A DNA stretch of 64,000 bases from an uncultured Eggerthellaceae bacterium (GTDB taxonomy: Bacteria; Actinomycetota; Coriobacteriia; Coriobacteriales; Eggerthellaceae): contig CANODU010000001.1 of assembly GCA_947565185.1 (NCBI GenBank), positions 62,001-126,000 on the forward strand, in the 5' to 3' direction. Positions within the stretch are counted from its first letter, which is position 1. Each line of letters opens with the position of its first letter. Below are positions 28,334-60,189 of this stretch, piece by piece. The translations under genes and the position numbers were made by a program. The notes beneath the pieces were generated by a model, which saw only the letters and a program-made list of their open reading frames with translations, made no database searches and was not told where the DNA came from.

Positions 28334-30484
<2,151 letters not shown>

Positions 30485-58238: not shown

Positions 58239-58760
58239 ATGAATCCGCAAGCAGGTTGGTATGCAGATCCCTCGGGCGACGTGACGCGTCTGCGCTTTTG
58301 GGACGGCGCGCAATGGACAGACCAGTACATGCCGGCACCTCAGCCCCAACCGCAACCTCAACAACAGGCCCAACAGACTTATCAGCAGCCTCAGCAGACC
58401 TACCAACAAGCCTATCAGCAGATGCCCTCACAGCAGGCGCAGTATGCGCAGCAGCCGTATGCATCTGCCCCTAATAATCAAGATGCATTCATGCAAGCAG
58501 GCATGGCGCCCGGGCAGATCTATCCCATGACCGATACGGACCGCACCTTGCGCTTGATCGCGTTCATCTGGAACATCTTCTGCACGGTAGCATGCGCCAT
58601 CCTGCTCATTCCGCTGGCATGGATGATCCCCATGACCGTCCATACCTATGGCATCTACAAGGGCACGAAGCCCAATACCGTGGCATTCGGCGTTTGCACG
58701 CTGCTCTTCATCGGCGTCGTCTCAGGCGTGCTGCTTCTCTGTTCCAGCAAAGACGAATAG
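58239..58760 (+). CDS. DUF2510 membrane protein with Gln/Pro-rich linker
   Basis: A 173-aa protein with an N-terminal DUF2510 module (AGWYADPSGDVTRLRFWDGA, ending QWTDQYM). A ~75-residue low-complexity linker of Pro and Gln repeats follows, then two membrane helices (LIAFIWNIFCTVACAILLIP and the C-terminal VAFGVCTLLFIGVVSGVLLL). Such proteins are common in actinobacteria; function unknown. ATG 58239 follows GAAGGAG. The longer frame from 58077 is only the shadow of the GNAT gene. Confidence 0.88.
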   Translation: MNPQAGWYADPSGDVTRLRFWDGAQWTDQYMPAPQPQPQPQQQAQQTYQQPQQTYQQAYQQMPSQQAQYAQQPYASAPNNQDAFMQAGMAPGQIYPMTDTDRTLRLIAFIWNIFCTVACAILLIPLAWMIPMTVHTYGIYKGTKPNTVAFGVCTLLFIGVVSGVLLLCSSKDE

Positions 58761-58762
58761 CG

Positions 58763-58868
58763 GTATCAGGTAGTCTGTATCAGGGGGACGGAGGAGTGAG
58801 ACATCCGAAGGATGTCTCACTCCTCCGTCCCCCTGATACAGACTACCTCCGTCCCCGTGATACAGACC
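58763..58868. repeat. Long perfect hairpin with 22-bp direct repeat (REP/MITE-like)
   Basis: Bases 58768-58806 are exactly complementary to 58810-58848: a 39-bp perfect stem with a 3-nt GAA loop. The right arm's segment 58822-58843 is repeated at 58846-58867 with one mismatch, and a short GTATCAGG half-copy precedes the left arm (58763-58770). The GGGGGACGGAGG core and GTATCA/TGATAC ends resemble REP-type repeats mobilised by RAYT (Y1) transposases; no transposase is in the window. It separates two convergent genes and could also stop transcription in both directions. Confidence 0.8.
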
Positions 58869-59219
58869 CTAAAGCGGCGTGGTGCCGGGAGCGTCATTGC
58901 CCTCCAGCATGAATCGGATGCGCTCCTCAAGGCGCTGCTCGCTCACGATGGCGTCGAATAGCGGCGTCTTCTGGCCATGGGCCACATAGACGATGTAGGG
59001 CAGCGCCGCCACGGCGAATTTGATCCGGAGTGCGCGCTGCTCGTCGATGTTCACCAGGCAGAACTTGACGCGCCCTTCGAAGGTGTGAGAGAGCGCTTCG
59101 AGGGCAGGTGCCATCTCATCGCAGTAGGTGCACCAACCCGCCGTGAATGCGATGACGCACGGTATCGTGCTCTGCGCCACTTCCTCTTCGAAGGTCTCAT
59201 CGGATATATTGAAGACCAT
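58869..59219 (-). CDS. Thioredoxin-like protein
   Basis: A 116-aa thioredoxin-fold protein with the active site AGWCTYCDEMAP (CTYC instead of the classical CGPC) and the cis-proline in AALPYIVYV. No signal peptide, so cytoplasmic. The changed dipeptide between the cysteines would alter its redox potential. ATG 59219 is preferred to ATG 59222 for spacing from GAAGGAGG. The frame open to 59447 is the shadow of the next gene. Confidence 0.9.
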   Translation of the reverse strand: MVFNISDETFEEEVAQSTIPCVIAFTAGWCTYCDEMAPALEALSHTFEGRVKFCLVNIDEQRALRIKFAVAALPYIVYVAHGQKTPLFDAIVSEQRLEERIRFMLEGNDAPGTTPL

Positions 59220-59250
59220 CATGCCTCCTTCGCAAAGGGATCCGTCAGTC

Positions 59251-60189
59251 CTATTCCACGGACAGGATGCGCACGCAGGTGGGATTGCCATCGAAGTCCG
59301 TGCCGGCGGCAACAGCCAAACTGAAATCATCATCGGCCATGTGGGGCACGTCAAGGAGCGCCCGCGCCTGGGCGCGGTGATAGATATCCCAGAAGCCGTC
59401 GGTGCGCACCTCTCCTGTGCCCGGATGGACCCACGGGGCGTGCTCATGGTTGTCGAAGATGCTCTCGCTCAGAAGCCGGTTGCGGTGGCTCATGGCGCGC
59501 GCCATGGAATGCTTGCGGAAGAGGCGCTCAGCAAGGCCTATCACGCCGCGCTTCAGGCCACGCGGCGAGTGCAGCGCCATGAGCACGAGCCGATAGCCAT
59601 CCACGCCCGCCCCGTAGGCGTCAGGACGGATGTCCCTGCCAAGGGCGCATTTCGCTACGTACTTGTACATGAGCGATATCACGTGCACCACCTGCGGGGA
59701 CGCCTCTAAGGCAAGGGTGGTGTCGAAAGAGGCGATGGTGACGCCATCGATCTGGCTCAAGGTGAGGATATCCAGCTCTGATTCGATCTCTGCATGCACC
59801 TCATGGCCATCCTTGGCGGAAAGCCCTTCTATGCCCGCGCGCACGATGGCCTCTTGCTGCGCATAGATGAAGGGGTGCATCTGCGAGTCCAGGAGGAAGT
59901 GGCAATACAGTCCGCGGACATAGGCACCTCCGATGTCGGCCATGGAGTCAGGGAGCATGTTCGCCGCATCTCGCATGCAGCTAAGGATCCGCTGAGCGTC
60001 TGTCTTATGCATCTGGGTCCCCAAGCCCCAACCTGTCGCCTTGAGCTCTGTCGGACAGAAGAAGAGCACATCCGGTCCTTGATTTCCCAGCATGAACGCC
60101 TCGAAGGCTTCGCGCGTAGGGAAGACGGCCGGCGAGGTTCGCTCATAGAGGGTGCGACCGAAGAGGTAGTGCGTGATGACAGCAGGCAT
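59251..60189 (-). CDS. Zinc-dependent phospholipase C-like protein
   Basis: A 312-aa protein of the Zn_dep_PLPC type. It begins MPAVITHYLFGRTLYE and has the conserved FMLGNQGPDVLFF and YVRGLYCHFLLDSQMHPFIY segments, whose His and Asp would bind zinc. No signal peptide is evident, so it is probably cytoplasmic. Substrate unknown; the family name does not prove phospholipase activity. ATG 60189 follows GAAAGGTG. It lies 31 bp upstream of the thioredoxin gene on the same strand. Confidence 0.85.
   Translation of the reverse strand: MPAVITHYLFGRTLYERTSPAVFPTREAFEAFMLGNQGPDVLFFCPTELKATGWGLGTQMHKTDAQRILSCMRDAANMLPDSMADIGGAYVRGLYCHFLLDSQMHPFIYAQQEAIVRAGIEGLSAKDGHEVHAEIESELDILTLSQIDGVTIASFDTTLALEASPQVVHVISLMYKYVAKCALGRDIRPDAYGAGVDGYRLVLMALHSPRGLKRGVIGLAERLFRKHSMARAMSHRNRLLSESIFDNHEHAPWVHPGTGEVRTDGFWDIYHRAQARALLDVPHMADDDFSLAVAAGTDFDGNPTCVRILSVE

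Follow-up and report, generated by a model that had tools for sequence, protein, structure and literature searches.

In the 64-kb window, i.e., the whole stretch of DNA that was analysed, the 108-bp intergenic region bounded by two convergent stop codons was found to consist entirely of one palindromic element (Table 1). An inverted-repeat search returned two arms of 39 nt each, 100% complementary across the 3-nt loop GAA, in agreement with the perfect 81-nt hairpin (39+3+39) reported in the preliminary description. This was the only perfect inverted pair of at least 25 nt in the window, where the core of the element had just one further match, with 2 mismatches, which is chance level. DNA folding of the hairpin gave -52.3 kcal/mol, compared with -14.6 ± 2.5 kcal/mol for 200 dinucleotide shuffles (z -14.8), none of which reached so low a value. 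As for the two neighbouring genes, their orthologs are non-adjacent in the sister species (G001), that of the upstream gene being located at G001:C1:240107-240538.

Judged by its sequence, the focal copy is a '++--' nest of four units with a 10-nt deletion in the left outer unit; when the right side, reverse-complemented (GTCTGTATCACGGGGACGGAGGTAGTCTGTATCAGGGGG), was aligned to the left side (GCGGTATCAGGTAGTCTGTATCAGGGGG), the left outer unit was found to lack CGGGGACGGA. This arrangement accounts for both the adjoining direct repeat (58822-58843 and 58846-58867, 21/22 identical and 24 bp apart) and the partial copy on the other side, two features that the preliminary description had recognised correctly. 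Its view of one long REP-like hairpin holds with respect to the REP-like character, but the structure is not a single long REP, being instead an inverted dimer of ~26-nt units that is enclosed by a second such pair. The palindromic centre varies among copies, with GCGC/GCGC, GTCC/GGAC, and GCCC/GGGC found elsewhere, and the changes on its two sides compensate each other.

Table 1. Positions of the focal element, its parts, and the adjacent genes in the window
Feature	Position	Strand	Remarks
Upstream neighbour	58240..58760	+	Small membrane protein, DUF2510-like N-terminus (named by inspection only)
Whole element	58761..58868	.	Between TAG 58758-58760 (+) and TAG read from 58871-58869 (-)
Outer + unit remnant	58763..58776	+	GTATCA then GGTAGTCT, without CGGGGACGGA (10 nt)
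Left arm, perfect 39-bp palindrome	58768..58806	+	
Inner repeat unit, + copy	58777..58802	+	GTATCA-GGGGGACGGAGGAG-TGAGAC
Variable palindromic centre	58803..58813	.	ATCC-GAA-GGAT
Right arm, perfect 39-bp palindrome	58810..58848	-	
Inner repeat unit, - copy	58814..58839	-	
Outer unit, - copy	58846..58863	-	24-bp shell, C variant of core GTATCACGGGGACGGAGG
Downstream neighbour	58869..59222	-	Thioredoxin-like protein, WCTYC motif (named by inspection)

Copy number, geometry, and arm matching of the repeat family

The core TATCANGGGGACGGAGG had 237 exact matches in the 1.8-Mb, 94-contig source genome (124 forward and 113 reverse; reversed-pattern control, 0 on both strands) and none in 137 other Eggerthellaceae genomes, the one sister species included, which is the opposite of a sequence that is unique in its genome and common to distant relatives. 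The family amounts to roughly a hundred scattered copies of a species-specific palindromic repeat, located mainly between genes, with only 1 of the 41 copies with enough flank lying inside a predicted ORF. The many scattered copies with variable loops that had been anticipated were thus recovered, in the form of inverted pairs around a variable 11-nt centre. The repeat had no match in viral contigs, plasmids, or phages, and hence no such source was found; likewise, Rfam gave no match at the gathering score, and the literature search returned no relevant paper with the core sequence or Eggerthella repeats.

The fetched copies shared a common plan, consisting of a unit GTATCA-NGGGGACGGAGGAG-TGAKAC, an 11-nt palindromic centre, and an inverted second unit. 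As read from its letters, the unit is ~26 nt long, with short self-complementary arms (GTATCA ... TGAKAC) predicted to flank the G-rich loop NGGGGACGGAGGAG. The two units of a dimer start 44 nt apart in 30 of 33 complete dimers and 43-48 nt apart in the remaining ones. With regard to unit order, '+-' was the most frequent pattern (24), followed by '++--' (5), with fewer of the others. Some dimers are accompanied by further units, spaced at a 24-bp period and in many cases present on both sides, and units were also detected singly or in head-to-tail arrays, including four head-to-tail units at the end of one contig. Several contigs end inside copies, indicating that the assembly was broken by the repeat family. 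A single unit of the TGAGAC form showed no folding by itself (0 kcal/mol), suggesting that recognition may need the dimer or plain sequence.

The two arms of each copy were closely matched. At the variable core position (A, C, or G), the two arms had the same base in all 33 dimers, a count reached by none of 200,000 permutations (largest, 28), and the private GGGAG variant was found in both arms of L045. In 30 aligned dimers, 98.6% of the stem cells were paired, compared with 35-53% in slid controls; moreover, eight stem pairs were changed on both sides, giving a covariation score that was reached by 0/500 shuffles. The left arms of different copies differed on average at 3.7 of 32 positions, whereas the arms within one copy differed at 0.9. 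The arms therefore covary, indicating that the palindromes are kept near-perfect. Long palindromes are usually unstable in bacteria, and the GGGAC-loop loci offer many copies in which they are kept near-perfect. With regard to the earlier proposal that the hairpin must be recent or maintained, perfect pairing need not mean recent origin, as the arms within any one copy match although subfamilies differ. Such arm matching would result if dimers were copied whole and a putative arm-templated correction step also acted.

A comparison of the paralogous pair L060 and L162, with flanks 93-100% identical, revealed the element in L060 at the place where L162 carries 27 nt that belong to a second repeat family of the same genome (described in the last section). 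In this single case no target duplication was detected, and the 27 nt were replaced rather than interrupted by a clean insertion. The other paralogous empty sites were mostly weak or artefactual alignments, leaving L060/L162 as the only clean pair. For the repeat family as a whole, we infer mobilisation.

RAYT genes in the source genome and its relatives

The Y1_Tnp/RAYT gene whose presence had been foreseen was indeed found in the source genome, in which two RAYT genes are visible, on contigs C64 and C16, each cut at the contig end. On C16, positions 29047-29202 encode the first ~52 residues of a RAYT up to the contig end, with the downstream flank and the catalytic core beyond it. A unit of the family (GTATCACGGGGACGGAGGAGTGAGAC, C16:28905-28930) lies ~120 bp upstream of this gene and is oriented as in relatives. 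Cores have a density of about one per 8 kb and are mostly intergenic, and the probability of a copy beside a given gene start by chance is roughly estimated at a few per cent. We take the C16 RAYT to be the putative cognate gene of the GTATCA family, its downstream flank and catalytic core falling outside the assembly. In addition, the contig end (C16:29163-29220, the end of L069) folds back inside the RAYT gene as an inverted duplication of ~29 nt, which is probably an assembly or library artefact masking the remainder of the gene.

C64 carries the only RAYT in the assembly with a visible catalytic domain, which matched the NCBIfam model REP_Tyr_transpos with an E value of 1.2e-15, below the model's cut-off, and a PDB sequence search for the RAYT gave no match. 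Upstream of this gene is a single-copy terminal repeat, AACCCATTGGGGACGGGGATATTGGGTT, which differs from the GTATCA unit and also accompanies the 69% identical homologs in the sister species. Contig C50 harbors a RAYT C-terminal piece followed by a repeat of the same type as that of C64, and the piece is probably the other end of the C64 RAYT. The start of this contig (C50:1-34, L152) resembles an Illumina adapter (GTGACTGGAGTTCAGACGTGTGCTCTTCCGATCT), an assembly contaminant.

Flanking the Y1_Tnp genes of relatives were units built in the same way as the GTATCA unit but with different arms, such as CCTGCAA-ttggggacggttccttt-TTGCAGG, TGAGACA-aagggacggggtcaa-TGTCTCA, and GACGAC-ggggacggagggt-GTCGTC, and both GGGGACAG and GGGGACGG occurred among these units. 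A hairpin with GGGAC in its loop was located within 450 bp of 33 of 61 RAYT genes, compared with a mean of 6.8 and a maximum of 11 in 50 shuffled sets, the 61 loci being thinned by protein identity with close relatives still among them and hence not fully independent. These hairpins were typically oriented + upstream and - downstream of the RAYT gene. Such inverted flanking was seen in many relatives, and in the source genome the upstream flank alone is assembled. In one relative (G002), the units on either side of the RAYT are GACGAC-GGGGACGGAGGGT-GTCGTC, and these are also dispersed as dimers and arrays (44 cores). Alignment of the RAYTs, that of C64 included, showed invariant HUH (NH-x-H) and Y-x-H-x-N motifs. 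The proteins, of ~250 aa, carry NHxH, FQ, and Y[IV]HxNP together with a helix-turn-helix-like C-terminus, which are the marks of subclass 2.1 (PMC6006769), and they were assigned to this subclass accordingly.

In the sister species, a different dimer, TGTGCAGAAGGGACGTYCCAAATTGCACA inverted, lies downstream of the gene orthologous to the left neighbour. This unit had 501 + 495 matches genome-wide at up to 3 mismatches (control, 0), and none in the source genome. None of the six Y1 genes of G001 is directly beside this GGGAC-loop family, the nearest copy being ~1.6 kb away; with ~1000 copies and no directly adjacent RAYT, the flanking of RAYT genes by such units is evidently not always visible. 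The same family, viewed at L219:143-238, has the GGGAC-loop unit AGAAGGGACGTYCCAAATTGCACA in ~996 copies (501+, 495-), mostly as inverted pairs ~60 bp apart, the arms of which usually differ at one base, with C in one and T in the other.

Origin of the repeats and comparison with known systems

Considering the observed copy number, fixed geometry, arm covariation, mainly intergenic position, and RAYT association in relatives, as well as the copy upstream of a RAYT in the source genome, the focal element is very likely a copy of a species-specific, REPIN-like, non-autonomous repeat population of the TIRYT/subclass 2.1 RAYT type. The original suggestion of REP-like repeats moved by a RAYT/Y1 transposase was thus essentially right, with its tag and anatomy corrected here. 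In the mechanism proposed, the C16 RAYT, a HUH single-strand nuclease of the one-tyrosine type as judged by homology to subclass 2.1, would recognise a unit or dimer that has folded within single-stranded DNA, e.g., on the lagging strand, cut beside the unit, and paste copies elsewhere without target duplication. When a hairpin or cruciform forms during replication, each arm could template the correction of the other, so that the palindromes would stay near-perfect. For the host, the copies would be mostly neutral 3'-end passengers, which may also protect or shape mRNA ends.

Among the alternatives, transposition as a MITE-like element by a DDE transposase recognising long terminal inverted repeats would fit the long inverted repeats, the high copy number, and the scattered intergenic copies, but it is highly improbable given the lack of a target duplication at the single occupied/empty pair (L060/L162), the absence of any interior apart from the 11-nt centre, the occurrence of single units and of head-to-tail arrays at a 24-bp period, which is unusual for TIR-bounded MITEs, and the presence of the same unit type beside HUH/Y1 genes. 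It is also very unlikely that the copies are immobile bidirectional transcription terminators or mRNA 3'-end stabilisers kept by selection at gene ends. The hairpin is very stable, and among the 26 copies with both neighbours called (by codon bias, and hence approximately) 12 lie between convergent genes, 13 between tandem genes, and only 1 between divergent genes, as expected of such a role; however, copies are also found in tandem arrays and within the second repeat family, none of the relatives searched has the GTATCA family, and neither a T-run nor a terminator-like site was found in 58400-59300. Without a T-tract, the focal copy is not a classical terminator, and a secondary host role may exist beside mobility.

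Two further alternatives concern the enzyme. Mobilisation of the GTATCA family in trans by the C64 RAYT is suggested by the visibility of the HUH and Tyr motifs in this RAYT alone and by the GGGGACGG core that its own terminal repeat, differing in its arms, has in common with the family. We consider this unlikely, as the 69% identical homologs of the C64 RAYT in G001 carry the same AACCCATT arms, implying that arms and enzyme seem to go together, and the second RAYT (C16) has the GTATCA unit itself upstream. C64 was therefore placed second as the cognate gene, its terminal repeat having other arms and being single copy. Rather unlikely, albeit with a real chance of being correct, is the view that the copies are dead relics of a past RAYT amplification, with arms now alike only via replication-linked palindrome correction. 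Quasipalindrome correction can by itself keep two arms matched and could alone explain the arm matching, and the RAYT genes are incomplete in the assembly; yet both truncations fall at contig ends without visible mutations, and the high identity among copies and the species specificity within the genus argue for recent amplification.

As for known systems, the REPIN-like population closely resembles the TIRtrons and TIR repeats of TIRYTs, i.e., Y1 transposase genes flanked by inverted repeats with a GGGGWSAS motif, and some of these repeats are dispersed as families of moderate abundance in which dimers and clusters occur (Di Nocera et al. 2013, PMC3733652). The core here, GGGGACGG, matches GGGGWSAS at 7/8 positions, and the families here are large, with 237 and ~1000 copies; Eggerthella, Slackia, and Actinobacteria are absent from the main text of that paper. 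Subclass 2.1 TnpA-REP, which corresponds to Bertels group 1 RAYT and is the second largest subclass (~15% of strains in one survey), has no REP-like sequences recorded beside its genes, and its link to TIRYT is to be confirmed (Quentin et al. 2018, PMC6006769). The RAYTs here share with it NHxH, FQ, Y[IV]HxNP, the HTH-like C-terminal tail, and a length of ~250 aa, but differ from the subclass as surveyed in that imperfect palindromic units flank many of the genes and, at least in G002, are amplified across the genome.

The repeats are also similar to the GTAG REPs and REPINs of group 2 and 3 RAYTs (E. coli, Pseudomonas) in their high copy number, intergenic location, inverted dimers forming long hairpins, and RAYT association, whereas the conserved GGGGAC tag is in the unit loop rather than at the 5' foot. 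Membership among the GTAG REPs was rejected, as the unit foot of the aligned copies is GTATCA and lacks GT[AG]G; the GGGGGACGGAGG core, which had been called typical of REP-like elements, is not so for classical GTAG/GTGG REPs and resembles the terminal repeats of TIRYT type (subclass 2.1). In CGTC REPs, this tetranucleotide is found at the foot of the hairpin, and no RAYT is known for them (Di Nocera 2013, PMC3733652). CCGTCC is present on the reverse strand of the core, but CGTC occurs only inside the unit loop on this strand and not unpaired at the palindrome end, and a RAYT is linked here; membership in this group was thus also rejected.

A broader reading, for and against which we see the balance as even, is that, along with GTAG and CGTC, GGGAC-loop repeats make up a third superfamily of REPs, for which subclass 2.1 (group 1) RAYTs provide the enzyme. 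In this case, the enzyme would read the constant loop (GGGGACRG), the arms would diverge with the enzyme, and each species would amplify its own version. If true, these versions would be the 237 cores here, the ~1000 in the sister species, and the 44 in G002, none being common to two species of one genus. What is new is that this bacterial group has such repeats in amplified, loop-tagged form, with a nested-dimer anatomy and species-specific arms around a core carried in the loop. Very large, unrelated populations of GGGAC-loop repeats are present in two species of one genus, and these loci give subclass 2.1 a concrete candidate substrate as well as a testable recognition rule of a constant GGGAC loop with variable arms.

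Further repeat families in the source genome and relatives

In G013 and G036, 28 and 21 copies of GGGGACGGAGG were detected (reversed control, 1 and 0, respectively), which are candidates for further independent families. In the source genome, the second repeat family consists of ~330 bp of consecutive palindromes, e.g., GTGCGGCCAGTTGGCCGCAC, ATGCCCTTTGCATATCCATGCAAAGGGCAT, and ATAGGTTTGTGCAAGCACAAACCTAT, and was found at L040:487-816 (G000:C4:13186-13515) and 77 other places. These 78 matches have no counterpart in G001, G002, or G036. GTATCA elements lie inside or beside copies of this family, and at L043:930-1040, compared with L032:4498 and L047:619, a GTATCA hairpin occupies exactly the position of another hairpin (GTTTGTGCAAGCACAAAC) in the second repeat, a site that looks as if one hairpin had been exchanged for another.
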